Shown here: positions 5,834 through 23,713 of the stretch, in pieces
How positions within the stretch are numbered: the first letter of the stretch is position 1
Layout of the letters: every line of letters begins with the position of its first letter
Source: Thiocapsa sp.
Lineage (GTDB): Bacteria; Pseudomonadota; Gammaproteobacteria; Chromatiales; Chromatiaceae
Assembly (NCBI RefSeq): GCF_011390875.1
Contig: NZ_JAABRP010000031.1
Location: 1 to 34,261 of the forward strand
Direction of reading: 5' to 3'
DNA length: 34,261 nucleotides
Position numbers and translations under genes: made by a program
Notes under the pieces: generated by a model
What the model saw: the letters and a program-made list of their open reading frames with translations, nothing else
What the model was told of the DNA's origin: nothing
Database searches by the model: none

Positions 5834-5920
5834 CTGAACCGCGTCGACTCGAATCGCGAAAGGAAGCGCGGTCGCATCGACCAAACTCCCACCCCGACCT
5901 GAGCCCCGGACGCGGTTCAG
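5834..5920. repeat. Diverged CTGAACCGCG repeat module at the end of rpe
   Basis: The left end CTGAACCGCGTC and right end GACGCGGTTCAG are perfect 12-bp inverted ends and are a G variant of the CTAAACCGCGTC ends seen elsewhere in the window. Length is 87 bp. The right end supplies the TGA stop of rpe (5917-5919). The interior has little resemblance to other copies, apart from CCGG next to the right end. Confidence 0.7.
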
Positions 5921-6600
5921 CGCGCCATCTGCTCGCGCATCTCCCGGATAATGCTGTCGTAGCGATGCGGATCGCTGTCGCGGCCCTTGCCGAAGATCCC
6001 GGAGCCGGAGACGAAGGTGTCCGCACCCGCCGCCTTGATCTCGCCGATGTTGTCCGCCTTCACGCCGCCGTCGACCTCGAGCCGAATATCGAACCCGGAC
6101 GCATCGATCATCTTGCGCGCCGCGCGCAGCTTGTCCATCGTTGCCGGGATGAAGCTCTGACCGCCGAAGCCGGGATTGACCGACATCAGCAGGATCATAT
6201 CGATCTTGTCCATCACATAGTCGAGATAGCTCAGCGATGTGGCCGGGTTGAAGACCAGACCCGCCTTGCAGCCTTCGTTGCGGATCAACTGGAGGGTGCG
6301 GTCGATGTGCTCGCTCGCTTCCGGGTGGAAGGTGATGTATGTCGCACCGGCTGCGGCAAAGTCCGGGATGATCCGATCGACCGGCTTCACCATCAGATGC
6401 ACGTCGATGGGCGCCGTCACGCCGTGCTTGCGCAGCGCCTCGCAGACCAGCGGGCCGATGGTGAGGTTCGGCACGTAATGGTTGTCCATCACGTCGAAAT
6501 GGACGATGTCCGCGCCGGCGGCGAGCACATTGTCGACCTCCTCGCCGAGCCGGGCGAAATCCGCCGAGAGGATGGACGGTGCGATCAGATCAGGCGTCAT
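5917..6600 (-). CDS. rpe: Ribulose-phosphate 3-epimerase
   Basis: Rpe interconverts ribulose 5-phosphate and xylulose 5-phosphate in the pentose phosphate and Calvin cycles. It is 227 residues, normal length. A TIM-barrel epimerase is shown by APSILSADF (7-15), [12 protein letters not shown] with metal ligands His34 and Asp36, HLMV with His68, [17 protein letters not shown] (catalytic Asp) and SGSGIFG phosphate loop. AGGGGA lies upstream of ATG 6600. It is the first gene of the rpe-gph-trpE series, and its own TGA is provided by a repeat module end. Confidence 0.97.
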
Positions 6601-6727
6601 GCTGTTGTCCCCTAAGATCTCGCTCGCCGCGGCACACGCGCCTCGGCCCGGATCCGTTTTGATGTTGAAAGTGAGAAACTTTAACCGAAGCGGGCCGGAT
6701 TTTCACTCGGCACGCGGACGCACACGT

Positions 6728-7112
6728 CTAAACCGCGCCCAGCGCGGCATGCGATGTTTTTCGATGGGATCGGCCCCGGCAGACTTGACGGCCGCCGGAG
6801 CGGGCGCGGTTTAAGATATTAAAAAATATACGATTTAAAACTGCGTCCCGACTAAGGGCCGTGGATGCGCCAAACGTCGAGCTAAACCGCGCCCGGTGCG
6901 ATATGCGTCATTTGTTGGAATGACTTGGCCGCGCCAGCCCCGACGACTGTCGGAGCTGGCGCGATTTAAAGTCTTAAAGAATATTAAATTCTAAACCGCG
7001 TCTCACCGGGGTCGAGGACATCTCCGAAGCCAAACGCAAAATGAAAACTATGCATCTCGCTCCGGACGCGGTTTAGCTCGAAAATCACCATATCGCTCTG
7101 GACGCGGTTTAG
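6728..7112. repeat. Cluster of CTAAACCGCG repeat modules
   Basis: This 385-bp cluster fills most of the rpe-djlA gap. It contains: a B-type module (6728-6813, CTAAACCGCGCCCAGCG... to GGGCGCGGTTTAA); a partial module (about 6834-6881); a C-type module (6882-6970) with the GCGCCAGC/GCTGGCGC hairpin; an AT-rich linker; an A-type module in reverse (6991-7076); and a head fragment (7077-7112). The C-linker-A part is the reverse complement of the 196-bp units at 9480 and 12753, with a few differences. The right end gives djlA its TAA stop. No coding region is seen in 6601-7108. Confidence 0.88.
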
Positions 7113-7930
7113 GCCGCCCGCGCCTCCGTGATGGTCTCGTAGGCACGCCGGATCTCCTGCGTCTTCTGCGAGGCCATCCGCATGGCCTCCTCCGGCAGAC
7201 CCTTCGCCATCAGCTTATCCGGGTGATGCTGGCTCATCAGGCGCCGATACGCCTTCTTGATCTCGGCGTCGCTCGCCTTGGGACCGACGCCCAGGGTCGC
7301 GTAGGCGCTGGCGAGCGGTGCCGGTCTCGCCGCCGCCGAGGACTTACCGCGGCCGGCCTGCCCGGTCGCACCGGCATACATCCGCTGCTGCAGCACCAAA
7401 AGGTTTTCGAGCTGCCGATAGGCGAAGGCAGAGACGTTGAGTCCGCGCCGGATGGTCTCGAGCGCGCGCCGTTGGTCCGGTGTCGGGGCGCCGTCCACGT
7501 ACGCGGTCAGAAGCTGCACCTCGAGGAACAGGTGAATCAATGTCCCCTGACCCGTGCAGACCGCCTTCAGTGCAGCGATGGCGCCCGCCAGATCGAAATC
7601 CTGCGACTTGCCTTTGTTGAACAGATCGATCGCGACGCGGCGCTGGTCGGTGCCCAAGGACATCCGATCCATCACGGAACGCGCCAGGGCGACCTCGGCC
7701 TCGCTGACCCGCCCGTCGGCCTTGGCGACGTGACCCATCACCAAGAAGGTCGTCTCGAAGAAACGCGCCTGGACCCGCGCCCGCTGCGCACCCGTCAAGG
7801 CCGGGCGCCGCGAGCCACCGATCCAGCCCCGATCCACACCCTGACCCAAGGCCGCACCGAATACCGCACCGACCGGACCTCCTACGACCAGACCGATGGC
7901 GCCGCCGACGGCTGTGCCGACCCAACCCAT
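7109..7930 (-). CDS. djlA: DjlA-like co-chaperone (TerB plus J domain)
   Basis: The protein pairs a TerB-like helical domain (about residues 55-165, FLVMGHVAKADGRVSEAE) with a C-terminal DnaJ domain (209-273) bearing the HPD tripeptide at 236-238, which stimulates DnaK ATPase. The N-terminus (1-35) is glycine-rich and hydrophobic (GTAVGGAIGLVVGGPVGAVF), matching the membrane anchor of DjlA. A linker rich in A, G and P separates the domains. Length (273) fits DjlA. It is 13 bp downstream of a CbiM-like membrane gene, and its TAA stop is part of a repeat module. Confidence 0.9.
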   Translation of the reverse strand: MGWVGTAVGGAIGLVVGGPVGAVFGAALGQGVDRGWIGGSRRPALTGAQRARVQARFFETTFLVMGHVAKADGRVSEAEVALARSVMDRMSLGTDQRRVAIDLFNKGKSQDFDLAGAIAALKAVCTGQGTLIHLFLEVQLLTAYVDGAPTPDQRRALETIRRGLNVSAFAYRQLENLLVLQQRMYAGATGQAGRGKSSAAARPAPLASAYATLGVGPKASDAEIKKAYRRLMSQHHPDKLMAKGLPEEAMRMASQKTQEIRRAYETITEARAA

Positions 7931-7943
7931 GTCGAAAACTCCC

Positions 7944-8609
7944 CTATTTTCCTTTCAGGTACTGTTCATCGCTGAAGGAGTAGACCCACTGTGGCTTGAA
8001 CGCCACCAGCACGGCCAAGATCCAGCCGTTCAGGAAGGCCTCCGGCATGAACATCAAAGGAAAGAAGGGTAGCACCGTTTCGCTGAGATCCGCGAAGCTG
8101 TAAGCGCCGCTGAGCACCAGCAACCAAGCGGCCAGATAGCCCGTCATCACGCCCACCAGACCCGCGGTCAAGAACCCGTTCACCAGCACATAGACGAAAA
8201 ACTGTTTGGGCAGATACCAGCGGATCAGGATCAAGGCGACCTGGGTCAGTGTCGCCGGCACGACACCCGTGAGGAGGGCATTCATCGCGAACCCGTCCCA
8301 GCCCGTTCCCGCGTTCAGAACCACCCCGAGCAGCACCAACGCAGCCCCGATCACCGCCAACGACCACCCGAACATCAGGGTGATGGCCGTCACCCCGAGC
8401 AGATGAAACGACAACCCGGACTGCACCTGAACGTCCATGTGCCAGAGCACGAGCAGCGCAACGACCGCCCCGAGAAAGACGTTCAACTGCTCCATGTCGC
8501 GAAGCTTCCGCCACGGCGTGAGCTTCAGGGCAAGCAGCAGGAGCAAGGCGAAGAGCAGATTCATGACCCAGAGCAGGGCCGGCGAGAACAGCGTACCGTC
8601 GATCGTCAT
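7944..8609 (-). CDS. CbiM-like energy-coupling-factor permease family protein
   Basis: This 221-residue protein is almost entirely hydrophobic, with about six membrane segments (for example ALLWVMNLLFALLLLLAL, ALVLLGVVL, WLLVLSGAYSF). The segment QSGLSFHLLGVTAITLMFGW resembles the core of CbiM/ECF S-component-like permeases (PF01891), where it is part of the membrane substrate site. There are no ATPase or CbiN/CbiQ partners next to it, so cobalt transport cannot be inferred. The similar family in pseudomonads also occurs alone. It is followed by djlA at 13 bp, so the two are likely co-transcribed. Confidence 0.7.
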   Translation of the reverse strand: MTIDGTLFSPALLWVMNLLFALLLLLALKLTPWRKLRDMEQLNVFLGAVVALLVLWHMDVQVQSGLSFHLLGVTAITLMFGWSLAVIGAALVLLGVVLNAGTGWDGFAMNALLTGVVPATLTQVALILIRWYLPKQFFVYVLVNGFLTAGLVGVMTGYLAAWLLVLSGAYSFADLSETVLPFFPLMFMPEAFLNGWILAVLVAFKPQWVYSFSDEQYLKGK

Positions 8610-8809
8610 GTCGCGCCTGTCGGAGGTGGCTTGGTCGAGTTGACCTCATCTTTCGGAAATTAGGCAAGTTTTCGGGTGGATCAACGGTGAGGCTGCAATG
8701 AAGGGTTCACCGGAAGAGGCACGATTGCGGTGTCCGAATCGGTGTTCGGCGTGAAATATAGGGAGAAACGCCGCGAGTTGAGCGGCAAGGATCGGCAGCG
8801 GGAGGAGAA

Positions 8810-8896
8810 TTAAACCGCGCCCAGCGCGGTATGCGATGTTTTTGGATGGGATCGATCCCGGCAGACTTGGCGACTTCCGGAGTCCGCGCGGTTTAG
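8810..8896. repeat. CTAAACCGCG-family module, B type
   Basis: This single module starts TTAAACCGCGCCCAGCG and ends GCGCGGTTTAG. It matches the B module at 6728-6813 over most of its length, including GCGATGTTTTT, GATGGGATCG and CCCGGCAGACTTG. It stands 7 bp beyond the stop of the hemerythrin gene. The remaining bases of the 8610-8903 gap show no gene. Confidence 0.85.
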
Positions 8897-8903
8897 TGGA
8901 GAC

Positions 8904-9341
8904 TCAAACGTCCGCGATCATGGCAGCCACGTCCGCCGCTCGCTCCGGCAGGGCCCCGTCGGCCATCGGGTAGATGATCCCCTCTTCTTTGTAGTTGTGT
9001 TGCTGCACCAGAAAATGCAGCGTCTCGAGGATGCCGAGCAACGCGTTCTTATCGCGTATATCGACCGCCTCGCCGATCTCGGAGAGGAGTTGACGCATCT
9101 GCGCGTGCTCGTTGCACATGATCTCGATGGGATTTTCCGCGACGAAAAAGACCTGCGCGAGTGCGGGAAAGACGACGTCTTCCTCCAGCGCAAAGTGACG
9201 GTCCATTGCGGTGACGAGTGCTCCGGCGGCAGCACCGATGGCGGACCAATCCGAGCCGCCGGCACTGGCTTCGGCTGCGGCGAGGAGACGGTCGCAGCGG
9301 TGGTGATCCTCGGTGAAGGTGTCGGTAATCGCCGTCATCAT
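8904..9341 (-). CDS. Hemerythrin-domain protein
   Basis: The 145 residues carry the hemerythrin HHE metal-ligand pattern: His13/14 (EDHHRCD), His49 and Glu53 (DRHFALEED), His79 (NEHAQM), His115 and Glu119 (QHNYKEE). Such proteins bind a non-haem di-iron site and sense or handle O2 or NO. ATG 9341 was chosen because homology-like sequence starts there; an in-frame start at 9413 would add a basic, low-complexity extension and overlap a possible FNR-type site. It is monocistronic, ending at a repeat module. The specific role (oxygen sensing, nitric oxide handling, iron-centre repair) cannot be decided. Confidence 0.88.
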   Translation of the reverse strand: MMTAITDTFTEDHHRCDRLLAAAEASAGGSDWSAIGAAAGALVTAMDRHFALEEDVVFPALAQVFFVAENPIEIMCNEHAQMRQLLSEIGEAVDIRDKNALLGILETLHFLVQQHNYKEEGIIYPMADGALPERAADVAAMIADV

Positions 9342-9406
9342 TCCGTTGTTTTCCGTTGCCGATGCTTGAGATACGGTGATTCTGCGGCGCCGCGAACGTC
9401 GATTCC

Positions 9407-9420
9407 TTGACATGAGTCAG
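9407..9420. promoter_or_regulatory. Possible CRP/FNR-family site before the hemerythrin gene
   Basis: TTGACATGAGTCAG is a near-palindrome of the TTGAY-N4-RTCAA type bound by FNR, Anr or DNR-class regulators, with nine of ten half-site bases symmetric. It is centred about 72 bp upstream of ATG 9341. Redox control of a hemerythrin is plausible, but a single site found by eye is weak evidence. Confidence 0.3.
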
Positions 9421-9479
9421 GCGATGGGTCACGGCCAATAAAGCCGAAAACCGTGCTCTTGACCCGGAACCGACCGCCG

Positions 9480-9675
9480 CTAAACCGCGTCCGGAGCGAG
9501 ATGCGTCGTTTTTATTTTGCGTTTGGCTTCGGAGATGTCCTCGACCCCGGTGAGACGCGGTTTAGGATTTGATATTTTTTTAAGACTTTAAACCGCGCCA
9601 GCTCCGACAGTCGTCGGGGCTGGCGCGGCCAAGCCATTCCAACACATGACGCATATCGCACCGGGCGCGGTTTAG
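9480..9675. repeat. 196-bp composite CTAAACCGCG element (A module, AT linker, inverted C module)
   Basis: The A module runs CTAAACCGCGTCCGGAGCG to GTGAGACGCGGTTTAG; the linker is gatttgatatttttttaaga; the C module runs TTTAAACCGCGCC to GGGCGCGGTTTAG, so heads face outward. The C module holds a 16-bp stem (9593-9608 with 9613-9628, one G-T pair, loop AGTC). The right end supplies the TAA of the secreted-protein gene. It appears identical, base for base, to 12753-12948. Confidence 0.95.
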
Positions 9676-10193
9676 CGGGCAGGAGTGATGATCGCGTACA
9701 GCATGTCCGGCATGTGCACGGTATCCGTGGATGCGTCGAACGGCCACAGTTTGGAGGTCACTGAACGGAACCCATCCCGGGAATAGATCACCTCGACCGC
9801 GTAGGTCGTTTGAGCCGAAGGCGCCGCGCCTGTCGAGTGTTCGGGGATCAAGACCGTGCAGGATTCGCGGGAGCGGCATCCAAGGAGCTGTAGATTTCGC
9901 TGCTCGCCGGGGTTGGCCGTGAGTGCACCGCTCTCGCTTGCGACGAGGAGGACTTGGGCGACCTCCTGTGCGAGCTGCCCGTAACCGCTGAGCTGAGCGG
10001 GGTAAACGCCATTGAAGGAGCCATCCGCGAAGGCGACGTCGTACAGGCTGCCTTGGATCTCGATACCCGTCACGCCGCTGATCACGCCGTTGTCGACGGC
10101 GAAGGATTGCGCGTGGGCCGAGACTGCAGCCGCGAGGCATAGGGTCATCATGCCGGGACGGAATCCGTGATCGACAGTGCGTTTTATCGTCAT
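9672..10193 (-). CDS. Secreted protein of unknown function
   Basis: This 173-residue protein has a Sec signal: MTIKR, then a hydrophobic stretch MMTLCLAAAVSAHA with likely cleavage after Ala28. The mature part begins QSFAVDNGVISGVTGIEI, then SLYDVAFADGSFNGVYP, a pattern I associate with small exported proteins in which a short beta-rich domain follows the signal. Two cysteines (GCRSRESC) could form a disulfide. ATG 10193 is supported by GGAG 9 nt upstream; an earlier in-frame start would bury the signal. It diverges from the two-component genes. No family was recognised. Its stop lies in the repeat element. Confidence 0.75.
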   Translation of the reverse strand: MTIKRTVDHGFRPGMMTLCLAAAVSAHAQSFAVDNGVISGVTGIEIQGSLYDVAFADGSFNGVYPAQLSGYGQLAQEVAQVLLVASESGALTANPGEQRNLQLLGCRSRESCTVLIPEHSTGAAPSAQTTYAVEVIYSRDGFRSVTSKLWPFDASTDTVHMPDMLYAIITPAR

Positions 10194-10496
10194 AGTGCTC
10201 TCCGGTTGGGATCGATGAACGACGTGGCCTCGCGCTCGTCGGAGCGCCATTGAACCGCACGGATGTTCATTGCGCATTGCGAAATGTAGAGAAAAAGCGT
10301 CGGGTTCGAGCCGTTCCTTTTTTGGTGCACTCTCGCCTGTTATCGTCATCTCATCGACCGAGAGCGGATGCCGTGCGACGGCGTCGAGTGCGTCGAGCGT
10401 GGGTCGACCCGGTCCGCTTCACTCGACAGAAGCAGCACCCGCTGCGAAACCCCGTTCATGGCCGCTCGTGCCGAGGCGTCCGGAGCTGCCGTGAAG

Positions 10497-12032
10497 ATGT
10501 CGTTCTCCATTCACACCAAGGTCTTTCTCACGCTTCTGCTCGCCTGCGTTCTGGTCTTGTCGGGTACTCAGGCGTTCGTGCATTGGTCGCTTCAACGCGG
10601 GTTGGTCGAGCTGGCTGCGGCGCGCGAGCACGCGCGGGTCGAGGTCATCGGCGATCGTCTCACCGAAATCTATGCCCGAGAGGGGAGCTGGGCGTCGCTG
10701 CGCGAGTCGCCGCGGCTGTGGCTCGGCGCGCTGCTGGGGCGCGATTGGCCTGCCGAGGGGCGTCGGGGCCGACCGGGGGATGGCTCGCGCCCTCCGCCGT
10801 GGGCGCGACGCTTTCTCGGACCGCATCATCAGGTGGACGGCGGCGAGGGCTTCATCTGGCCACCGCCGTTGGCTTTGCGCGACGAGGGACAGGATCAGGG
10901 GGCGCCGATCGAGATGCGATTGATGCTGCTCGACGCCGACGGCACCCTGGTTTACGGACGCCCCGAGCTGTTGTCCGAGACGCGGCGTTTTGCGTTGGAC
11001 CTCGACGGCACGCGGATCGGCGAGCTTGCTGTCATCGCGGGTCCGCCGGTCGCGGAGCTCGCTGATCTGCACTTCGTCGAGCGTCAGGGTGGGCGCCTCT
11101 GGCTGATCGTGCTGGCCATGCTGGCACTCGCAGCCGCCTTGGCGTATCCGCTTTCCAGTCGTCTGATCCGGCCCGTGCAAGGCTTTCAGGAGACCGCTCG
11201 CCGGCTGGCAGCGGGGGACTATGACGCCCGCGTTTCGGTTGCGGGCGGCGACGAGATCGCCCGCTTGGGCCGCGACATCAACGCGCTTGCGGATGCCTTA
11301 GGGCGCAACGATCGGGCGCGGCGTCAGTGGGTCGCGGACATCTCGCATGAGCTGCGCACGCCGATTGCGCTGTTGCGGGCGCATCTGGAAGCGATGCAGG
11401 ATGGCGTGAGGCCGCTGGAGCGCGCGGAAGTCGATCGCCTGCTCGGCGACGTGCTGCGGCTCTCGCGCCTGGTCGAAGATCTCAACGATCTCGCGACGAC
11501 GGATCTCGGTGCACTCGCCTACCGCATGCAGGAGATCGACCTTGCCGAGCTCCTCTGCGAGGATATCGATGCCTTCCGGACGCGCTTCGAGGCCGCAGGG
11601 CTTGCCTTGGTCTTCGACAATCGGCTCGCCGGTCGGCGCGGCGCGGGTCCGGTCGGGTGGGCTCCGCTGCACGCGGACGCCGGCCGCATCTCCCAACTCT
11701 TCGGCAACCTGCTTCACAACAGCCTGAGCTACACGGACCCGGGCGGAGGGCTTACGGTGACCTTGGACGCAGCTCCGCTCGGAGGGTATCGGATCACCTT
11801 CGAAGACACTGCGCCCGGCGTCCCGACGGAGGACCTGCCGCGGCTCTTCGACCGGCTGTATCGGGTCGATGCCTCGCGCAGCCGCCACACGGGCGGTGCC
11901 GGACTGGGGCTCGCGATCGCGAAGAATGTGGTGCTGGCCCATGGCGGCACCATCGAGGCGCACGCTGCGGAAGCGGGCGGTTGTTCGATCCGCATCGAGC
12001 TGCCGGCGGACCGAGGGGTAAGATCCAAATGA
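10497..12032 (+). CDS. baeS: Sensor histidine kinase, BaeS-like
   Basis: This is a 511-residue inner-membrane kinase. It has TM1 (8-27), a periplasmic sensor region (28-200) rich in R, G and P, TM2 (201-220), HAMP (221-272), a dimerisation/phosphoacceptor helix with His284 in DISHELRTP, and an ATPase domain with N-box NLLHNS (404-409) and GGAGLGLAI (467-474). The G1 box is unusual: FEDTAPGVP where most kinases have DDGPGI/V. Family resemblance to BaeS (envelope stress) is strengthened by the Spy-like gene downstream. ATG 10497 has GGAG 12 nt upstream; GTG 10491 is equally possible. Its stop overlaps the regulator start (ATGA). Confidence 0.9.
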   Translation: MSFSIHTKVFLTLLLACVLVLSGTQAFVHWSLQRGLVELAAAREHARVEVIGDRLTEIYAREGSWASLRESPRLWLGALLGRDWPAEGRRGRPGDGSRPPPWARRFLGPHHQVDGGEGFIWPPPLALRDEGQDQGAPIEMRLMLLDADGTLVYGRPELLSETRRFALDLDGTRIGELAVIAGPPVAELADLHFVERQGGRLWLIVLAMLALAAALAYPLSSRLIRPVQGFQETARRLAAGDYDARVSVAGGDEIARLGRDINALADALGRNDRARRQWVADISHELRTPIALLRAHLEAMQDGVRPLERAEVDRLLGDVLRLSRLVEDLNDLATTDLGALAYRMQEIDLAELLCEDIDAFRTRFEAAGLALVFDNRLAGRRGAGPVGWAPLHADAGRISQLFGNLLHNSLSYTDPGGGLTVTLDAAPLGGYRITFEDTAPGVPTEDLPRLFDRLYRVDASRSRHTGGAGLGLAIAKNVVLAHGGTIEAHAAEAGGCSIRIELPADRGVRSK

Positions 12033-12748
12033 ACCAAACTGCACTGCCGTTGATCCTCATCGTCGAGGACGAGGAGCGCCTGGCCGACGTGGTCGGCGAC
12101 TATCTGCGTGCGGCCGGCTTCCGGGTCCATCACCTGGCTACCGGCGCGGGTGCAGTCGCCTGGATCGAGCGAGAGGGACCGGATCTGATCCTGCTCGACC
12201 TCATGCTGCCGGGTCAGGACGGGTTGAGCATCTGTCGCGAGGTGCGCAGCCGCGCTCAGGTGCCCATCATCATGACGACGGCACGGGTCGAGGAGATCGA
12301 TCGTCTCCTCGGGCTTGAGCTGGGTGCCGACGACTATGTCTGCAAACCTTACAGCCCGCGGGAGTTGGTGGCCCGCGTCAAGGCTGTCCTGAGACGAACG
12401 AGCCGGGCGCTCGAGCACCGCCGGAGCGGTTTCTTGACACTCGAGCCGGAGCGCTTGCAGGTCTCGCACGACGGCAAGATCATCACGCTGACTGCCGTGG
12501 AGCTTGCATTGCTGGCCGCGCTCCATCAGGCCGCGGGCCGAATCCTCTCGCGCGACCACCTCATGGACCGAATCTACACCGACAACCGGGTCGTGTCCGA
12601 TCGCACCATCGACAGCCACATCAAGAAGCTCCGGCGCCGACTCACCGAGCTGGCGCCGGATGTCGAGCTGATCCACTCGGTCTACGGTGTCGGCTATCGC
12701 TACGAGGAGCCCGACACCGACGCGGCAGTCTCGCAGGGATCCAAGTGA
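12029..12748 (+). CDS. baeR: Response regulator, OmpR/BaeR family
   Basis: This 239-residue regulator has a receiver domain (7-122) with acidic pocket Glu13/Asp14, phosphoacceptor Asp57 (LILLDLMLPG), Thr83/84 and Lys106 (CKPYSP). A winged-helix DNA-binding domain (140-229) ends with the typical SHIKKLRRRL and HSVYGVGYRYE. It is coupled to the kinase by a 4-bp ATGA overlap. The likely target is the CTGCAC array 230 bp downstream, in front of the Spy-like gene. The name BaeR rests on the BaeS-like partner and on the Spy neighbour; CpxR-like function is the alternative. Confidence 0.9.
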   Translation: MNQTALPLILIVEDEERLADVVGDYLRAAGFRVHHLATGAGAVAWIEREGPDLILLDLMLPGQDGLSICREVRSRAQVPIIMTTARVEEIDRLLGLELGADDYVCKPYSPRELVARVKAVLRRTSRALEHRRSGFLTLEPERLQVSHDGKIITLTAVELALLAALHQAAGRILSRDHLMDRIYTDNRVVSDRTIDSHIKKLRRRLTELAPDVELIHSVYGVGYRYEEPDTDAAVSQGSK

Positions 12749-12752
12749 TCCA

Positions 12753-12948
12753 CTAAACCGCGTCCGGAGCGAGATGCGTCGTTTTTATTTTGCGTTTGGC
12801 TTCGGAGATGTCCTCGACCCCGGTGAGACGCGGTTTAGGATTTGATATTTTTTTAAGACTTTAAACCGCGCCAGCTCCGACAGTCGTCGGGGCTGGCGCG
12901 GCCAAGCCATTCCAACACATGACGCATATCGCACCGGGCGCGGTTTAG
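12753..12948. repeat. 196-bp composite CTAAACCGCG element, second identical copy
   Basis: It has the same sequence and orientation as 9480-9675, and I found no mismatch on reading both. It starts 4 nt after the baeR stop. The hairpin of its C module (12866-12901) is a good candidate for a transcription end or mRNA 3' stabiliser between baeR and the Spy-like gene. Confidence 0.95.
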
Positions 12949-12981
12949 AGGGCTTGCTCGCGAACCCGGCTTCCACGAAAT

Positions 12982-13029
12982 CTGCACGATCGCTGCACAG
13001 CTCCTGCACCCTGGTCACCTAACCTGCAC
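12982..13029. promoter_or_regulatory. Probable response-regulator operator: CTGCAC direct repeats
   Basis: CTGCAC occurs at 12982, 12993 and 13004, each separated by exactly 5 bp, giving an 11-bp period, and once more at 13024 (20 bp on). Hexamer direct repeats one helical turn apart are the standard binding pattern of OmpR/PhoP-family regulators. The array lies just upstream of the Spy-like gene and downstream of baeR, whose product is the obvious candidate. A matching -10/-35 pair was not clear. Confidence 0.7.
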
Positions 13030-13102
13030 TGCGTCGGGATTGGACTCGACATGCCATCGGGATCCTCCCGAGACGCAACGAAGACATCACAGGTGACACA
13101 TC

Positions 13103-13657: not shown

Positions 13658-13714
13658 TGCCCCGAGCCATGGCCGATGGCGGTTGAGCACGCTCCGACCG
13701 GAGGCGACAGTGAT

Positions 13715-15021: not shown

Positions 15022-15038
15022 CGCCGGATCTCGCCGGA

Positions 15039-15848: not shown

Positions 15849-15906
15849 TGGACTCGAACGACCAGACTCGGGGACGATGAGGTCGAATCGTCGCTTGGGC
15901 AGCCTG

Positions 15907-16818
15907 TCAGGGCGTAGGGGACGATTCGCGCCCCATCACGACGCCCGAATGCCCGCATTTGAGCCCCGCGAGCTTGACCGCCTGCACGACCGCCTCCCCG
16001 GATGGCAGGCCCTGCACAAGACCGTGGATGACCCCTGCGTTGAAGACATCGCCCGCACCCAGGGTATCGACGATACGCGTCGGGACGTAGGCAGGCACCC
16101 GCTGGACATGACCGCCGCGCACAAGGGATGCGGCACCTCGTGCGCCCCAAGCAACGACGCAAAGCCGTGCATCGCTGCGCACGAGGAGATCCTCCAAGAA
16201 ATCACCTGGATCCTCGAATCCACCGCCGCGCGCAAAGACGCGACTCGCCAGCAAGAGTTGCGGGCCGTTCAGCAGCGCCTCGATCCCGGGGCGGTGCTTT
16301 TCGAGCTCGACCGAGATCGGCACATCAGGGGCCTCCTCGCGAACACGGCGGATCATCCGTGCCGTCTCCGGCGGGTTGCGCCCTTCGAAATGGACCCAGG
16401 CGAGTCCATCGAGCGAGACCCGTCCGAAATCGTCCGCACTCAGCTCGGGAAGATCTCGAAAATGGACGATGGTCCGGCTGCCGCCGGCGCGGCTGAGCAG
16501 GATCGAAGAGATCGGGGTGGTCCCGCCGGGGACGCGCACCGCATCCTTGGCCTCGATGCCGTGACCGGCAAGGTCGGCGAGGATCAGGTCCGCCGCCGGG
16601 TCGTCGCCCAAGGTGCCCACCCAACGGCACGGGTGTCCGAGTTGCGACAGCACGGCGAGGCTGTTGGTGACGTTGCCGCCGCGCACCCGGCGCATGGCCA
16701 GGGCGCGGACCTCGTCGTCCTCGGCGGGATAAACCTCGACCTCGTTGACGAGGTCGAGCACGGCAATGCCGATACCCAGCACGGAGCCGGTCGCGCGCAC
16801 CCGAACGGACCCGGCCAC
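15907..16818 (-). CDS. PfkB-family sugar kinase (ketohexokinase-like)
   Basis: About 303 residues of ribokinase/PfkB fold. The N-terminal GIGIAVLDLV and RVRGGNVTNSLAVLSQLG segments are the sugar-binding part; DTLGAGDVFNAGVIHGL carries the catalytic Asp and anion hole. This combination (VLDLVNEVEVYPAEDDE) resembles the ketohexokinase-like subgroup, but the substrate is uncertain. No in-frame ATG fits, so GTG 16818 is the tentative start, 1 nt after the TGA of the FGE-fold gene; GTG 16830 is possible. No SD was seen, consistent with translational coupling to the upstream gene. Confidence 0.85.
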   Translation of the reverse strand: MAGSVRVRATGSVLGIGIAVLDLVNEVEVYPAEDDEVRALAMRRVRGGNVTNSLAVLSQLGHPCRWVGTLGDDPAADLILADLAGHGIEAKDAVRVPGGTTPISSILLSRAGGSRTIVHFRDLPELSADDFGRVSLDGLAWVHFEGRNPPETARMIRRVREEAPDVPISVELEKHRPGIEALLNGPQLLLASRVFARGGGFEDPGDFLEDLLVRSDARLCVVAWGARGAASLVRGGHVQRVPAYVPTRIVDTLGAGDVFNAGVIHGLVQGLPSGEAVVQAVKLAGLKCGHSGVVMGRESSPTP

Positions 16819-16819
16819 A

Positions 16820-18247
16820 TCAGAGATCACGTGCAACGCGAAACCCCAGCATGCCCAGACGCGTTCCCGGAACGAAGCGCGCGCGAACGTAGGTCCGCAT
16901 CGAGGCGGAGGGTTTGTTGAACGCACCGCCGCGCGCGACGCGATAGGTGCATGGACCGTCCGTGCGGGCGCGCCCGTCGCTCGGCGCGCCGTCGTAGTCC
17001 GGCTGATAACAGTCCGCGACCCACTCCATGACATTGCCCGCCGTGTCGTGGAGGCCGAAAGGGCTCGGCTCGAAGCTCCCTACGGGAGCCGTCGAGCGGT
17101 TGTCCCAGGCGCTGCCGCAGTCGAAGCAGGCCGCCCGATTCGGCTCCAGCCCGAACCCCCACCAGTAGGATCCGCCCCCGCCGGCTCGCGCCGCATATTC
17201 CCATTCGGCCTCGCTCGGCAGGCGGTAGCTGCGTCCCGTCTCGCGGGAGAGCCAGGTCACATAGGCCCGGGCATCCTCCCAGCTCACGCCGACCGCCGGG
17301 CGGTTGCCTCGACCCCATCCGAAGTCCTTCGCAAGGCCGCGGCCGACGGCGCGGGCGAAGCGATCGTATTCCTCGAAGGTGATTTCGTAGACACCCAGCA
17401 AGAAGGGCGCGATCTCGACCTCGTGCGCCGGCCCGAAATCGCTTGCGACCGTGAGATTCCGGCCCATCCGAAAACGCCCGCCCGGGAGCCTTGCGAGCGT
17501 CGGACCAAAGCCGCCGTTGCGCAGCCGATCCCGCTGTGTCGGTACGGAGACCATCGATGGCGCAACAGGCTCGATCGTTGGGTCGGATCCGGGCGGTAAC
17601 TCGCTCGCCCCGGTCGCGGTCTGTGTCGCAGGGGCCTCCGATGAAACGGTTTCCGGGTCCCCGGGGGCCGGCGGGCGATCGGCACGCAGCCAGACGAAGA
17701 TGACGAGCAACGCGAGCACCGGTAGAAGAAGCAGGGGCCAGAGGCCAAGCCTGATGACGCGACGTCGGGCTTGTGGTGGTGCGGCCGAGGGCCCACGCGG
17801 CGGTGCCGTGTCGAGCACCGCCGGCTCGCTCCCCTGCGCCTGCACGTCGAGCAGGGCTTGTCTCAAGCGGCCGACCTCGTCTTGGGCGGCCTTCAGGGAA
17901 AGATCGCGCCGCTCGACCTCCTTGCGCAGGCCGTCGAAGACCAGATGCTGATCCTCCAAAACGTCCTCGAGACGTCGGCACTCTTCGGTGATCGCGTCGA
18001 GGGCCTGCTCTTTCGCGCCGAGGGTCCGCTGAAGGCTCTCGAGCTCCTGACGCAGGGCGAGCTGCTCGGCGGCCGAGGCTGCTCCGCCCTCGACCGCGGA
18101 GTGCTCGCTCAACTGGCGATTGATGCGCGCGACCTCCTGCTGGGCCTCGCGACGAACCTCGCCCAAGGCCTGCCCCAATGCCTGTCGCAGTGACTCGGTC
18201 TCGGTGCGATCGCCTTGCGGAAGCTGTAGGTTCGTTTCGTCGACCAT
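16820..18247 (-). CDS. Membrane-anchored SUMF1/FGE-fold protein with coiled coil
   Basis: 475 residues: an N-terminal acidic/charged coiled coil (about 14-135), a Pro/Ala linker, one membrane span (168-187, LGLWPLLLLPVLALLVIFVW), a Pro/Thr-rich linker and a C-terminal FGE-sulfatase domain (250-475) with PSEAEWEYAARAG, NVMEWVADCY, VARGGAFN and GFRVARDL. True formylglycine generators need a cysteine pair near the RGGS region; here the segment reads GGAFNKPSASMRTYVR with no Cys, so formylglycine synthesis is unlikely. The coil would be cytoplasmic and the FGE domain periplasmic. Its stop is adjacent to the PfkB start. The gene diverges from ggt. Confidence 0.85.
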   Translation of the reverse strand: MVDETNLQLPQGDRTETESLRQALGQALGEVRREAQQEVARINRQLSEHSAVEGGAASAAEQLALRQELESLQRTLGAKEQALDAITEECRRLEDVLEDQHLVFDGLRKEVERRDLSLKAAQDEVGRLRQALLDVQAQGSEPAVLDTAPPRGPSAAPPQARRRVIRLGLWPLLLLPVLALLVIFVWLRADRPPAPGDPETVSSEAPATQTATGASELPPGSDPTIEPVAPSMVSVPTQRDRLRNGGFGPTLARLPGGRFRMGRNLTVASDFGPAHEVEIAPFLLGVYEITFEEYDRFARAVGRGLAKDFGWGRGNRPAVGVSWEDARAYVTWLSRETGRSYRLPSEAEWEYAARAGGGGSYWWGFGLEPNRAACFDCGSAWDNRSTAPVGSFEPSPFGLHDTAGNVMEWVADCYQPDYDGAPSDGRARTDGPCTYRVARGGAFNKPSASMRTYVRARFVPGTRLGMLGFRVARDL

Positions 18248-18504
18248 TCAGGGGGCATCGGGTAGGTTGAGCGTCGGGCGCCTTCGTCGGATCATTCGGC
18301 TCGCGAGTGCGGGGCCGACGCGTAAGATTCGCATGATCGGGGGTCGGTTGCACCCCGGGTTGAACCGACCCCGCCGCCTCGGGCAGCAGCGAGCGCGCGA
18401 CACACCAAGCAGGAGGGGCGGCGACCGCCCGGTCTCCGGATCACGCCATCGGCATAAAAGAGGCCGGCAATGCATTCAATACCTCCAGCCGGACTCCGGC
18501 TCCC

Positions 18505-20064
18505 ATGACTACCCTCGGTAGCGTAGCAGCCGGTCATCCGTTGACGGCCGAGGCAGCCGTCGAGGCACTGCGTGCCGGCGGCAATGCCTTCGATGCGGCG
18601 CTCGCGGCGCTATGCGCGGCCTGCATCGCCGAGCCGGTCCTGGCCTCGCTCGGCGGCGGCGGCTTCCTGCTCGCGCGTCCCGCCGGCGCGGCGCCGGTGC
18701 TTTTCGACTTCTTCGCGCAGACCCCGCAGCAACACCGCCCGGAGCAGGAGCTGGACTTCTATCCGATCCTCGCCGATTTCGGCGACGCCACGCAGGAGTT
18801 CCACATCGGACAAGGATCGATCGCGACACCGGGGACGATCGCCGGTGTCGTTGCGATCCATCGTGAGCAATGTCGGCTTCCGCTCGAGACCATCGTTGCG
18901 CCGGCCTGCCGTCTCGCCCGCGACGGGGTGATCGTGAACCGCGTCCAGCGGGATATCGCCGAGATCGTCGCGCCGATCCTTCACGCGAGCCCTGCGGCCC
19001 TCGCACTCTATGCCGATCCGGATCAACCCGACCAGCTCGCCCCGATCGGGGCTCGGCTGCGCAACCCGCAGCTCGCCGAGACCCTGGAGCGGATCGCCCG
19101 CGAGGGCGCGGATCCCTTCTATCGCGGCGACTTGGGAGAGCGCTTGGTCCGTGATTGTGCCGAGCACGGAGGACATCTGAGTGCGGCTGATCTTGCCGAC
19201 TACCGGGTCGAGCGCCGCGCACCGCTCGTCCACCCCTATCGCGGAGCCCACCTCTTCACCAATCCGCCACCCTCGCAGGGCGGGTTTCTGCTCGGCGTCG
19301 CCTTGGGGCTACTCGACGTGGTCGAGCCGGTCCGACTCGGACGCGGCAGCCCCGAGCATCTGCACGCGCTCGCCCTTGCTCAGGAGCTGACCCAACGTCT
19401 GCGTCGCGCGCAGCCGGCTGCGCGCGACGAGCCGCTCTCGGCGCCACTTTCTGAGTTGGCCCCGAGCATCCCCGAAGCCTATCGCAGGCTCATGGAGGAC
19501 GCGGCGACCTTCAGCCGCGGGACCACGCAGATCAGCGTCGCCGATTGCGAGGGCAACCTCGCCAGCGTGACCCTTTCCAACGGGGAGGGCGCCGGCTATG
19601 TGCTGCCCGGAACAGGCATCATGCTCAACAACATGCTGGGGGAAGAGGACATCAACCCGCACGGCTTTCATCGCTGGCCCACCAACCGGCGGATCAGCTC
19701 CATGATGGCGCCGAGCCTTCTGGCACTGGCGGACGGGGGATGGGTTGTGACCGGCTCGTCCGGATCCAACCGGATCCGCAGCGCCATCCTGCAGGTGATC
19801 TCTAATCTGATCGACTTCGGTCTCGATCTGGAGGCAGCAGTGGCCTCGCCCAGGATGCACTACGAAGACGGGGTCCTGAACCTCGAACCGCCGATCACGG
19901 AGGAGACGATCGCCGCGCTCGGCACGCACTGGCCGGGGCTCAAGGTCTGGAATCGCAGAAGCGTCTTCTTCGGCGGCGCCCACAGTGTGGCTGTCTCTCC
20001 GGACGGCAGCACGCATGGCGCGGGCGATCCGAGGCGCGGCGGGGTTGCGCTCCAGGTCGGTTAG
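18505..20064 (+). CDS. ggt: Gamma-glutamyltransferase
   Basis: GGT cleaves or transfers the gamma-glutamyl group of glutathione and related thiols. This 519-residue precursor-like protein has the N-terminal AAGHPLTAEAAVEALRAGGN, GGGGFLL and TPGT segments of the large subunit. The autocleavage/nucleophile site is Thr340 in SRGTTQISVADCEGN (usually TTHxSV); PGTGIMLNNMLGEEDI and GSSGSNRI are small-subunit signatures. No signal peptide is present, so unlike E. coli GGT it should act in the cytoplasm. No SD was evident before ATG 18505; a small hairpin (18487-18501) sits directly upstream. Confidence 0.93.
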   Translation: MTTLGSVAAGHPLTAEAAVEALRAGGNAFDAALAALCAACIAEPVLASLGGGGFLLARPAGAAPVLFDFFAQTPQQHRPEQELDFYPILADFGDATQEFHIGQGSIATPGTIAGVVAIHREQCRLPLETIVAPACRLARDGVIVNRVQRDIAEIVAPILHASPAALALYADPDQPDQLAPIGARLRNPQLAETLERIAREGADPFYRGDLGERLVRDCAEHGGHLSAADLADYRVERRAPLVHPYRGAHLFTNPPPSQGGFLLGVALGLLDVVEPVRLGRGSPEHLHALALAQELTQRLRRAQPAARDEPLSAPLSELAPSIPEAYRRLMEDAATFSRGTTQISVADCEGNLASVTLSNGEGAGYVLPGTGIMLNNMLGEEDINPHGFHRWPTNRRISSMMAPSLLALADGGWVVTGSSGSNRIRSAILQVISNLIDFGLDLEAAVASPRMHYEDGVLNLEPPITEETIAALGTHWPGLKVWNRRSVFFGGAHSVAVSPDGSTHGAGDPRRGGVALQVG

Positions 20065-20099
20065 GGACGATTCAGAAACAAGGCGAACGCCTTGATGAA

Positions 20100-20220
20100 C
20101 ACGTAGGATGGGTAGAGCGGCAGCGAAACCCATCCTCCAAACCGCCGCGTTGCCGGGTGTCGGTCCGATGCCCTTGGCGCGGGCTGGATGGGTTTCGCTT
20201 CGCTCTACCCATCCTACGTG
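20100..20220. repeat. Inverted repeat of the GTAGGATGGGT type, second copy
   Basis: CACGTAGGATGGGTAGAGCG and CGCTCTACCCATCCTACGTG flank a central segment, with inner AAACCCATCC and GGATGGGTTT. It is the same repeat type as 4992-5094 and fills the convergent gap between ggt and the retropepsin-like gene, where it could act as a bidirectional hairpin. Confidence 0.88.
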
Positions 20221-20244
20221 TTTCGGTTGTTTTTGAATCGTGAC

Positions 20245-20814
20245 TTATTCACCTGAATACGGCCGCAGGATCATCTCCCCGCCGCGCAGCACCAGCTCCA
20301 TGCGTCTGAGGTAGGCCATGCCGAGCAAGACCTGATCGCCCTGCATGTTTGGGAGGATCGTCGCGTTGATGTCATAGGCGACCAGCCCGCCGACGTCCAC
20401 ACTCTCCAGCCGCGCGACCCAGGTGCGGACATCGCCGTTGCCGGTCTTGCTGATCCCGCCGGGTTGGAGCGTCAGGCCGAGCGTCTGGGCCACCATGTAG
20501 GGCATAGCGACATCCACGGCCCCGGTATCGACCAAGAACTCGATGGAGGTTCCGTTGATTCGCCCGGTGGTGACGTACTGACTCACCTGATTCTCTTTGA
20601 GGACCACCTCGGGCACGTCGCCGGCGCCGAGAAAGGCGACCGGGTTCGGATTCGGATTCTCCCGTCGCGCAGCCAGATCGCGCGCCAGCAGGATCACCAG
20701 CAGACTTGCCAGCAGAAACACGGGGATCGGCAGCTTGCGTTTGAGCCAGGCGACGGCGTTGTCTCGGATCCTGTGCAGTCTGATCATCGTTTGTCGGGGT
20801 GCGTCGCTAACCAT
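20245..20814 (-). CDS. Membrane-anchored retropepsin-like aspartic protease (copy 1)
   Basis: 189 residues with one membrane segment (about 30-46, LPIPVFLLASLLVILLA) and a retropepsin-like domain (80-189). The active-site triad is DTGAVD (Asp96-Thr-Gly), followed by psi-loop-like LLGMAYLRRMEL. The family (clan AA, TIGR02281-like) has one DTG per chain, so it should work as a homodimer. The start is uncertain: ATG 20814 or ATG 20787. It is a paralogue of the gene at 21026-21583, sharing NPNPNPV, the NPNMxGDxVLLGM-like region and the RGGxxxLRP end. Role in the cell unknown. Confidence 0.85.
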   Translation of the reverse strand: MVSDAPRQTMIRLHRIRDNAVAWLKRKLPIPVFLLASLLVILLARDLAARRENPNPNPVAFLGAGDVPEVVLKENQVSQYVTTGRINGTSIEFLVDTGAVDVAMPYMVAQTLGLTLQPGGISKTGNGDVRTWVARLESVDVGGLVAYDINATILPNMQGDQVLLGMAYLRRMELVLRGGEMILRPYSGE

Positions 20815-21025
20815 GAAACGCCGTCGGCGTTGATTCCGAGCCCGATCACGAGGCCGGATCGCCGCAGGCCGCCCGCCCGTCATCGCGCTCGAAGCGTCGC
20901 GCCGATGTACGGGATCGGTCGAGCTTAAACCGAAACCATAAAGATGACGAGGTTGTGTCGTGGAGTCGCGGAGGGCTGTCGTCGAGAGTCGGAGCCGGCG
21001 CGAGAGGCCGGCGCCGAGATGCGGA

Positions 21026-21583
21026 TCAAGATGATCCGAGGTGAGGACGCAGCGTCAGCACACCGCCGCGCTGGATCAGCTCCAGATGCCTCAAATAACT
21101 CATGCCCAGAAGGACATCGTCTCCCGGCATGTTCGGCAAGACCGTGGCGCGGACGTTGTGCGCGACCAATCCGCCGAGGTCGACGGTGTCGAGCCGTGTC
21201 GTCCAGGTGCGTACCATGCCGTTTGCAGTCTTGCTCATGCCGCCGGGTCTGAGCGGCAGCGACAGGCGCTCGGCCAAGGACAGCGGCAAAGCCACGTCGG
21301 TTGCACCGGTGTCGATCAGAAAGCGTACCGTTTCGCCGTTGATCCGACCGCCGGCGACATAGTGCCCGGCGCGGTTGCGTTCGAGGCGCACTTCGGGGAC
21401 CCCGCTGCCGCTGTGCAGCGCAACCGGATCCGGGTTGGGATTGTCCCGGCCGGTGATCACGCCGTCGAAGAACATCGCCAGCAGCGCCAATCCGACGATC
21501 CATGCTGCAAACAACATCACCCGTCCGACTTTCGAGGGCATGTCGTCGGCGCCGGGCGGCGCGCTGTTCATCGGTCCATCCAT
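21026..21583 (-). CDS. Membrane-anchored retropepsin-like aspartic protease (copy 2)
   Basis: 185 residues, with one membrane segment (22-40, VMLFAAWIVGLALLAMFF), then NPNPDPVA and a retropepsin domain bearing DTGATD (Asp91-Thr-Gly). LLGMSYLRHLEL and the RGGVLTLRP end match the neighbouring copy. GGGAG precedes ATG 21583 by about 6 nt. It lies upstream of copy 1 in the same direction, with 211 bp between them that hold nothing recognisable. Tandem duplication followed by divergence is the simplest origin. A predicted periplasmic-side catalytic domain follows from the single N-terminal span, but topology was not tested. Confidence 0.86.
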   Translation of the reverse strand: MDGPMNSAPPGADDMPSKVGRVMLFAAWIVGLALLAMFFDGVITGRDNPNPDPVALHSGSGVPEVRLERNRAGHYVAGGRINGETVRFLIDTGATDVALPLSLAERLSLPLRPGGMSKTANGMVRTWTTRLDTVDLGGLVAHNVRATVLPNMPGDDVLLGMSYLRHLELIQRGGVLTLRPHLGSS

Positions 21584-21731
21584 CGTCGGCTCCCGGTCGG
21601 GCGAAATGATCGCCGGTTGCGACCTCTCGCAAGGTCCAGTCTATGGCCTTTGGCTGCGTCTCCTTCAAGTGGTTCGCTCCGACCGAACCGCTCCTTCCGG
21701 CACAGCTCGGTCGGAGCGGCTGGGTCGAGGA

Positions 21732-22496
21732 TCAACGCGTCGGCACGGCCCCCTGTCCGGCCATACGCTGGAACTGCACCCGATAATAGGCGGCCGCGCT
21801 TTGGCCGTTCGCCACGACATCGTAGACGCGCCAGCCGGTCGGCGATTTGTACATCCGAAACTCGAGCTTGGAGGGATAGCTCTGCGCGCGCAGCAGCGCC
21901 ACGTTGACGCTGACGTCGCCGCGCGGGCCCATGCGGGGCGGCAACACGCGGATCTGCTGCCCCTGATAGTCCATCAGTCGGGACGCCAGCGTGCCGAGGA
22001 AGTCTGCCTCCAGATGCGCGGCCATCGCCTTCTTATCCTCGGCACTCATGCCTTCGGACGCCGGACCTGCCACCCACTTGGCCATTTGCTCGAAGTCGAA
22101 ATAGGGCGCGATCTCGCGGTCGAGGAAGGCGGCGACCTGAACTCGATTCGGCACCTCTTCGCGGGCCAGAAAGCCGAGGAGCTTATCCATGCCCTCTTTG
22201 AGCGTCGCGCTGGCCTCGGCCGCAGGCCCCCTAGGCATCTCGGCAGGCGCCCCTTCACCCCGGGCCGGCGTAGCCGTCTGCGCACGCGCGGGCGGCTCGG
22301 CCGGACGCGTGGGGCGAGCCGGGGCAGCGGGCATTTCCGGCATGGCGGGCATTGCCGGATAAGCGCCGCCGTAGGGCATCTGCATCGGGCCGTAGCCCTG
22401 TGGCATGGGTGGCGGAGCGTAGCCGTAAGGCTGGGCGGAAGCGCCGGCGGCGGCTCCGAGTAAAACGAGGAGCGGCACCAAAGAACGAGACTTCAT
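21732..22496 (-). CDS. MlaC/Ttg2D-family periplasmic phospholipid-binding protein
   Basis: 254 residues: signal peptide (cleavage near ASA/QP, residue 21), a long Pro/Met/Ala/Gly-rich stretch (22-100), then a MlaC domain (about 98-254) with IAPYFDFEQMAKWVAG, FLGTLASRLMDYQGQQI, and YRVQFQ near the end. MlaC carries phospholipids between outer and inner membrane, and Ttg2D is its Pseudomonas counterpart. Usually it sits in mlaFEDCB; here it stands alone, so the function may differ. The proline-rich insert is unusual for the family. AGGAGG lies 7 nt before ATG 22496. Confidence 0.83.
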   Translation of the reverse strand: MKSRSLVPLLVLLGAAAGASAQPYGYAPPPMPQGYGPMQMPYGGAYPAMPAMPEMPAAPARPTRPAEPPARAQTATPARGEGAPAEMPRGPAAEASATLKEGMDKLLGFLAREEVPNRVQVAAFLDREIAPYFDFEQMAKWVAGPASEGMSAEDKKAMAAHLEADFLGTLASRLMDYQGQQIRVLPPRMGPRGDVSVNVALLRAQSYPSKLEFRMYKSPTGWRVYDVVANGQSAAAYYRVQFQRMAGQGAVPTR

Positions 22497-22836
22497 CGAA
22501 TTCCTCCTAAACATTATGTTTTTCGTCGTCCGCCAAGCGCCCTGTAGCTGCCCGGCAGGCTCGGAGCGTGCCAACGGACAGGGTGAAAAGCAAGCCGGTC
22601 CGGGGTCCCCCGAGCGCATGTCTATTTTTCGCGGGCAGGGTGCGTCCCGCGAGCGTCGGGACAAGGCGCGCCGACGAGGCGTCACGGCTGCTGCGGCGAG
22701 GAGGCACAACGGCGGCCCGGCGTGTGCGGGGAGTGCAATGCGAAAAACCGAAGTGCGCTCGGTATAAACTATCGTGCATCGACAGGACTCGGAATCGCCC
22801 GAATCCGGCACACCACTACGAGGGAGGCAACACGTC
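22497..22836. other. Divergent intergenic region
   Basis: These 340 bp separate the MlaC-like gene (minus) and a small unknown gene (plus). They hold the ribosome sites of both. TATAAA at 22763-22768 is a plausible -10 for the plus-strand gene but has no good -35. No coding or repeat content was recognised. Confidence 0.6.
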
Positions 22837-23178
22837 ATGTCACTACCGCGCGTCTACTACCGGGTCGTCGGACAGGACGACTATGCGCTGGAGATCACCC
22901 TGGAGCCCACGGGTGCATATCGGGTCGATTGCGGCGACCACACCAGTCACAAGCCACGCCAAGGCGTGCTCGACGAGCGTCGGACACGCGAGATCGCCGC
23001 CCTGATCGACGCCTTGGGCGACCAGCGAGAACACCCGGCACCCGAAGGTGCGACCGGATTCATCGCCGAGCTGACCATCGGTACCCCGCCGGACACGCGC
23101 CTCTACCGCGTCTGGGAGGGCGAGCTGGCGGAAGAGCCGGATGTGATGGCGCTGATCCGCGCACTGGAAGTCATTTGA
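22837..23178 (+). CDS. Small conserved-looking protein of unknown function
   Basis: 113 residues, starting MSLPRVYYRVVGQDDYALEI with GAGGGAGG 12 nt before ATG 22837. It has no signal peptide or membrane segment and looks like an alpha/beta cytosolic domain: beta strands (YALEITLEP, GFIAELTIG, TRLYRVWEG) separated by a helix (TREIAALIDALGD). The arrangement vaguely recalls emfourin-type protease-inhibitor proteins, but this is only a layout resemblance. It is 64 bp upstream of a MaoC-like gene in the same direction. Confidence 0.7.
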   Translation: MSLPRVYYRVVGQDDYALEITLEPTGAYRVDCGDHTSHKPRQGVLDERRTREIAALIDALGDQREHPAPEGATGFIAELTIGTPPDTRLYRVWEGELAEEPDVMALIRALEVI

Positions 23179-23242
23179 GCGGCGTCGCGATCGCCGCGAA
23201 CGCACCTTCCGCATTCGGCAGGACAGCAGGGAGATCCCATCC

Positions 23243-23713
23243 ATGACACCAACCCGCTGTTTGACCGCCGCGATGCTCGAGGTCGGGATGCGCCACGAAG
23301 CACGGCTGAGCTTCAGCCGCGAGGACGTCGACCGCTACTGTGCCCTGGTCGCCGATCACAACGCGATCCATCGCGACCTCGACGCGGCACGGGTGCGGTT
23401 CCCGGATGCCCGCGACATCATCGTCCCTGGCGGACTCGTGCAGACCCGTATCTCCGCCCTCTTCGGGACCGAGTTTCCGGGCGACGGGACCCTTGGCTTG
23501 ACCTTCTCGCCCGAGCGCCTTCGCCGTCCGCTGTATCCGGGCGACGAGCTCGTCGTGACGCTGGAGGTCGCGCGCCTGATCCGCGGCGGAATCGTCGAGA
23601 TGCAGATCGCCATCGCCGATCCCGAGGGCAACCGCGTCAGCGAGGCAACGGCCAAGGTGGTTCCGCCGGACGCGGCCTATCGGGCTTGGTGGGAGGAGAA
23701 TATCGGAGGCTAA
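23243..23713 (+). CDS. MaoC-like hydratase/dehydratase
   Basis: 156 residues with a single hot-dog fold. The hydratase motif is visible as ADHNAIHRD with Asp38 and His43; VPGGLVQTRISALFG and LRRPLYPGDELVVTLEV are typical of R-specific enoyl-CoA hydratases and MaoC-like proteins. The substrate is unknown; roles in (R)-3-hydroxyacyl-CoA supply for polyhydroxyalkanoate or in fatty acid metabolism are possible. AGGGAG precedes the start. The TAA stop is the first bases of a repeat module (CTAAACCGCG). Confidence 0.88.
   Translation: MTPTRCLTAAMLEVGMRHEARLSFSREDVDRYCALVADHNAIHRDLDAARVRFPDARDIIVPGGLVQTRISALFGTEFPGDGTLGLTFSPERLRRPLYPGDELVVTLEVARLIRGGIVEMQIAIADPEGNRVSEATAKVVPPDAAYRAWWEENIGG

Follow-up and report, generated by a model that had tools for sequence, protein, structure and literature searches.

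Short palindromic mini-elements at gene 3' ends in Thiocapsa, probably inserted at YTAR targets with TA duplication, and their conversion of stop codons to TAA

Among the repeats of bacterial genomes, the ERIC elements of enterobacteria are palindromic in form with TA termini, and the MIRUs of mycobacteria lie at operon stop/start junctions. The elements described here are palindromic modules, single or paired, that lie at gene 3' ends in the purple sulfur bacterium Thiocapsa sp., where we examined them in a stretch of 34,261 nucleotides (NCBI RefSeq assembly GCF_011390875.1, contig NZ_JAABRP010000031.1, positions 1 to 34,261; hereafter the window) and in related genomes. MIRUs differ from them in being direct-repeat units with another target and without such a hairpin, and integron attC sites and CRISPR, which we take to be distinct from them, were set aside as identities. 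Mechanistically the nearest systems are TA-target miniature inverted-repeat transposable elements (MITEs) such as RUP, and IS630-type transposition, and the anatomy is also REPIN-like. RUP, a MITE of IS630-Spn1 present in 108 copies in Streptococcus pneumoniae, is like the modules short and non-coding, with inverted ends and a TA-containing target (PMC2229807); its ends match a resident IS630, whereas no partner was found for the Thiocapsa modules, and docking at stop codons is absent from the excerpted passages of that paper. The ERIC (or IRU) elements, which the same source gives as 127 bp long and tied to mRNA stability of neighbouring genes, differ from the modules in sequence and in length, the latter being 84–86 bp and often joined, heads outward, as doubles of one T-type and one C-type module.

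The REPINs of Pseudomonas have inverted conserved ends and a spacer bound in length and pairing but not in sequence, with compensatory changes common (PMC3116915), and when these traits were sought in the modules both a constrained length (198/217 at 84–86 bp) and compensatory end changes (32/36) were present. REPINs, however, hold REP sequences and are linked to a REP-associated tyrosine transposase (RAYT), whereas the modules occupy YTAR sites with TA duplication, and their own genome has no module-flanked RAYT gene. For the REPs of Escherichia coli, an earlier study is reported to have assigned 260/496 to translational regulation, and the reporting paper's own count places 446/4,072 (11%) at no more than 15 nt from a stop codon (PMC12306157); in half of the Thiocapsa clusters, by contrast, the stop codon belongs to the first strand of the hairpin.

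The module ends read YTRAACCGCG, and the paired 11-bp ends form terminal inverted repeats. The genome from which the window comes (3.98 Mb, in an assembly that is 91.5% complete) holds 341 modules with exact 9-bp ends and none for the reversed-motif control, which was also at zero throughout the 56 genomes searched. Exact-ended modules occur in 10 of those 56, this one included: 8 of the 11 genomes of the genus have 121–589 copies and three (G005, G006 and G009) have none, and two genomes of the same family outside the genus have 81 and 1 copies. The 81 copies are all in G028, a family member, and of the 23 remaining genomes of the family that lie outside the genus, just G031 has one. Neither plasmids and phages, queried with one double, nor viral contigs, queried with one pattern, gave a match to the element.

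The positions of the modules were analysed in a sample of 1.385 Mb in 131 pieces, window included, in which 1249 genes were called with a codon-based caller of our own rather than a standard program, and modules were detected with at most one mismatch per end. Because 20 fetched stretches came from contigs picked for listed modules, the density per Mb is biased upward, although docking should not be. The 217 modules detected fall into 166 clusters, of which 115 are single and 51 double. The double unit is about 195 bp long, with the heads outward in 45/51, a T-type module paired with a C-type one in 45/51, and a spacer of 23 bp in 30/51; the spacers are A+T-rich in the 30 listed.

Many modules are docked exactly on stop codons. 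Of the 176 gene 3' ends that face a cluster, 87 fall in the bin where the first three bases of the module are the stop codon, and for just 4 does the stop lie deeper inside the module (at least 19 nt). Counted at exact positions, 92 module ends are stop codons (82 TAA and 10 TGA), distributed over 83/166 clusters, and the 82 docked TAA codons make up one third of the 248 TAA stops called in the sample. The base preceding a docked TAA is C or T in all 82 cases, as against 161/334 for undocked TAA and TAG stops. In no case does the midpoint of a cluster lie deeper than 60 bp within a called gene, and one occupied site (on piece L002) falls in called coding sequence once the element is excised. 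The preliminary description of this DNA had proposed targeted insertion, or else selection, at gene 3' ends, and over the third of the genome covered here the copies do not lie at random distances from genes. Young clusters are docked about as often (33/71) as old ones (31/59; p=0.60), so docking arises at insertion or soon after.

Comparison with unoccupied orthologous sites reveals the target directly. At two sites the empty orthologs (n=8) carry a single TA that is doubled in the filled state. For the gene at 9672–10349, TAG with one TA is present in all three congeners whose alignment spans the junction (G001, G004 and G007); here the filled state is TAA...TTTAG, and the joined flanks match the empty sites with exactly one TA. 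The arrangement is C-TA[AACCGCG...CGCGGTT]TA-G, by which the stop changes from TAG to TAA and the protein length does not change. The second filled/empty site (G001 L158:4625-4817) has one TA in 5/5 empty orthologs. A stop change of the same kind is seen at djlA, which ends ...EARAA-TAG in G001, G005, G008 and G010 and ...EARAA-TAA-ACCGCG here.

To compare site classes, elements were removed in silico and filled sites were counted against all YTAR sites of each class; 140 of the 166 clusters enter this count, the 26 dropped being 24 without a TA start and the rest at contig edges. YTAR sites within stop codons are occupied in 67/222 cases and those 0–20 nt past the stop in 22/83, which do not differ (p=0.57). 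Occupancy then falls to 9/101 at 21–60 nt, 10/152 at 61–150 nt and 6/195 beyond 150 nt (3–9%), with 9/238 in divergent gaps, 9/80 in contig-edge gaps and 1/654 in coding sequence; non-YTAR TA sites account for 7 occupied sites in all. With contig edges excluded, stops pooled with the next 20 nt differ from divergent gaps and the more distant intergenic classes at p about 2e-24. Recognition of the stop codon itself is rejected, because YTAR in stops and in the 20 nt that follow is equally full. Targeted insertion at gene ends thus stands, with YTAR rather than the stop codon as such for its target, and docking is a YTAR target effect combined with a bias towards gene 3' ends. Stop codons make up about a fifth of the non-coding YTAR sites of this genome, which has 64% GC, and 67/132 non-coding YTAR insertions are at stops where 27 would be expected from YTAR alone (p about 2e-14). 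Palindromic targets (TTAA and CTAG) are favoured (85/132 vs 450/939, p=4e-4), and IS630 reportedly prefers TA within CTAG, in the words of a 1991 title.

We consider it likely that the modules are non-autonomous palindromic mini-elements that insert at YTAR with TA duplication, in an IS630/Tc1/mariner-like manner. A module of 84–86 bp, often one of a head-out pair, would insert into the TA of YTAR and double it, as Tc1/mariner/IS630 transposases do; IS630-family elements are described as inserting into TA and duplicating it (PMC2170065). As the element begins with A, a stop of the form Y-TAG or Y-TAA that receives it would be rebuilt as TAA at the same codon, and stop sites would tolerate insertion because the same-codon TAA keeps the protein unchanged. 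Since many stop codons supply this four-letter target, hundreds of modules could come to lie at gene ends. A further bias, seen already in young copies, would favour the stop itself and roughly the next 20 nt. An IS630-type transposase would act in trans, insertions inside genes would be lost, and in old copies the end hairpin may be kept by selection at the gene 3' end (on translation termination or the mRNA end) or by palindrome repair at the level of DNA. Stop codons can in this way serve a transposable element as safe places to land, since a YTAR target and a first base A turn TAG into TAA with the protein untouched. A literature search on MITE insertion in stop codons gave no match.

Several observations weigh against this mechanism. 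At the second filled/empty site TA is preceded by A in the empty orthologs and by C in the filled copy; djlA ends in TGA in G009; and the gene at 9672–10349 ends in TAA without an element in G010, G002 being diverged there. The baeR site has no empty TA, the diverged stretch reading GA in G001, G002 and G003 with a gap in G004; the hemerythrin site likewise has no empty TA and reads TG in G010; and the rpe site has no TA in G009. These three sites are diverged stretches, uninformative or unfavourable for TA duplication. The 24/166 clusters without a TA start are mostly of a type with mirrored TGA/TCA ends, a change that recurs and is not accounted for by TA duplication, and the bias for 3' ends is likewise left unexplained by YTAR alone. 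A transposase of IS630 type was not found in the modules' own genome (DDE_3 and HTH_Tnp_IS630 both at 0 matches, in the 91.5% complete assembly). When autonomous copies were sought, 98 unpaired module ends gave 8 outward pairs 110–3500 bp apart, and the three genes wholly between such ends encode phosphofructokinase, ACT-domain and AMP-binding proteins, with no transposase among them. DDE_3 does occur in 9/11 genomes of the genus, with 13 matches in G001 and 7 in G010. These two are the genomes richest in modules, and they hold several DDE_3 genes of near-equal score that are a candidate partner.

The old copies pose a real puzzle, as both their end stem and their length are kept. In 49 modules the interior shares under 66% identity with every other one in the sample (for 99% of shuffles the value is below 58%), and 32 of these modules are nevertheless 84–85 bp long, with end variants mirrored on both sides; because a weak interior consensus is kept near both ends, they seem to be relatives that have diverged strongly. 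Where a module has a single change at each end, the two are mirrored in 32/36 cases (at most 20 in 20,000 permutations), or in 13/17 when the TGA type is excluded (permutation maximum 9). At three orthologous sites compared across 6–7 species, length is unchanged and variable columns are fewer in the stem (15/66) than in the interior (97/185; p=3e-5), the separate sites giving p=0.024, 0.0004 and 0.31, so that one is not significant alone. Stem mispairs are flat with age (0.32 per module in young and 0.33 in old copies); as modules were found through intact ends and decayed stems are missed, this integrity is partly a sample effect, which the mirrored changes are not. Because old copies keep the end stem and about 84 bp while their interiors drift, it is likely that they either took on a role later or are subject to palindrome repair, and the mirrored changes raise the question of what keeps bacterial palindromes perfect.

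One explanation is that template switching during replication corrects imperfect palindromes and so maintains the ends of elements that are otherwise inert. The mirrored changes at several positions fit this, as does the lack of any bias towards the RNA strand, but it explains neither a length near 84 bp in copies with very divergent interiors nor the unmirrored changes in orthologous modules, and we hold it to be possible though doubtful. Of about the same tentative standing is the proposal that the mobile hairpin has become a standard part of Thiocapsa gene 3' ends, comprising an 11-bp mirrored stem, a largely free interior of about 62 bp and a length ruler, with a third of TAA stops (82/248) and termination in the first strand of the stem; it might then be kept for tuning ribosome release or for protecting the mRNA end. 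Ribosomes are reported to stall at REPs that lie within 15 nt of a stop (PMC12306157), and by analogy a stop-codon hairpin could act on translation here. Hairpins exactly at termination codons, together with empty orthologs in sister species, form a natural set, so that what a stop-codon hairpin does to termination and to mRNA is directly testable.

Rather less probable is that the modules are intrinsic transcription terminators or mRNA stabilisers selected at gene ends, with the stop codon a by-product. The greater conservation of the end stem at orthologous sites is in line with this, as is a C-G pair changed in place to T-A on both sides in G002 (other species have unmirrored changes), and old clusters are closer to 3' ends than young ones (45/59 vs 39/71, p=0.016). 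Double spacers often carry a T-run about 10 nt past the T-type stem, and T stands at +6 in 45% of docked singles and at +7 in 53%. However, the mean number of T per 12 nt after elements is 3.1 for singles and 2.2 for doubles against 2.9 in the control, and at least 6 T per 12 nt are found in 4/55 singles and 1/35 doubles against 23/201 in the control. Doubles are docked without polarity (T-type 9, C-type 14); the interiors fold like shuffles (mean z -0.19 and -0.46), the closing stem alone being shared in the consensus fold; and docking is already present in young copies. The stem gives no sign of selection at the RNA level, G-U (25) and A-C (23) mispairs being about equally common in the transcribed strand. 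The terminator function suggested in the preliminary description is therefore not supported, as T-tract, polarity and interior folding all fail to show it; a role at the mRNA 3' end or at the end of translation is possible, since orthologous copies have a conserved end stem.

It had also been suggested that transcription enters the modules at the head end, and singles do dock by the head more often than by the tail (34 vs 15, p=0.009). This excess comes from composite anatomy. Where an oriented single has an A+T-rich flank, the flank is at the tail in 34/36, and many 'singles' are half-doubles. Docked half-doubles are head 17, tail 0, because the head is the outer end of a head-out double unit, and docked true singles are head 17, tail 15 (p=0.86). 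The head-end preference was rejected as a sign of function, being gone in true singles.

A REPIN-type identity, under which a RAYT would move the modules in the form of single-stranded hairpins, seems improbable. Like REPINs as described (PMC3116915), the modules number in the hundreds, have conserved inverted ends and a nearly fixed length, and show mirrored changes at their ends. Y1_Tnp genes are present in 11/11 genus genomes searched, and of three such genes scanned in the modules' own genome one is IS200-like and the other two hit the NCBIfam RAYT model with scores under its cut-off. Against this, none of the four Y1_Tnp matches in that genome has module ends beside it, the closest modules lying about 0.9 and 1.4 kb away and two of the genes having none within 2.5 kb on their contig. 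The module ends lack the GTAG/CGTC tag, the target is a symmetric YTAR with TA doubled, and G005, G006 and G009 hold Y1_Tnp genes yet no exact-ended modules. Random insertion anywhere, with docking as the residue left because other insertions are harmful, is hardly credible, for although coding YTAR is almost empty, non-YTAR TA is nearly unused even between genes, and intergenic YTAR more than 20 nt from a stop is 3–9% filled against 30% at stops.

Within the window there are seven module-bearing places, and every one faces a gene 3' end, as the preliminary description had noted; the element list and anatomy needed amendment at trpG, djlA and the last place. The module ends are TAAACCGCG...CGCGGTTTA, and TAAACCGCG with at most one mismatch has 32 matches in the window against 6 by chance. 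A double at 1760–1958, which lies outside the range first given, consists of modules at 1760–1843 (with TAAAACGCG ends) and 1877–1958 that are orthologous in 6 and 5 congeners respectively. It fills the space that separates trpG from the gene that follows, and its second module contains the trpG stop, as described. The C-terminus of TrpG varies among species according to this element, and the double is kept in several congeners.

A single module at 5835–5919, with mirrored TGA/TCA ends and orthologs in 6 congeners, supplies the TGA stop of rpe (5917–5919). Across the sample 19 modules have TGA at both ends; they are scattered across 14 sequence groups, with C before and G after in 16/19. The TAA stop of djlA (7109–7111, minus strand), TAG in the four congeners without an element, is made by the end of a double at 6729–7111, whose modules lie at 6729–6813 and about 6836–7111, the inner edge near 6836 being read from the sequence. 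The second module is interrupted by a nested double at 6883–7075 (6883–6968 and 6992–7075), so that one double lies inside another element; this split of the module is why the 92 docked ends do not include the one at djlA. The flanks of the nested double, when joined, give CTAG, where related modules of G004 and G007 have CTCA.

A single module at 8811–8895 begins 8 nt past the stop of the hemerythrin gene, and a double at 12754–12947 (12754–12837 and 12862–12947) begins 5 nt past that of baeR, both bearing out the earlier placement just beyond the stop. The stop-forming ends proposed for two further genes are confirmed: a double at 9481–9674 (9481–9564 and 9589–9674) makes the TAA of the gene at 9672–10349, with an empty CTAG site in G001, G004 and G007, and another at 23711–23862 makes that of the gene at 23243–23713, its second module being just 45 bp long (23818–23862). 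Proteins earlier labelled 'maoC' and 'secreted' have no Pfam match at 1e-5, and an Rfam search of the window gave 0 matches above the gathering score. Elsewhere in the sample, two very short palindromes of 23 and 25 bp (L122:9297-9319 and L122:2986-3010) have nearly the same ends as the modules and almost no interior. A second abundant palindromic repeat (GTAGGATGGGTAGAGC...GAAACCCATCC) is present at 4992–5100 and 20096–20218 of the window, and its 14-mers reach 67 copies in the sample; it resembles a GTAG-tagged REP and may be a substrate of the resident RAYT-like genes.

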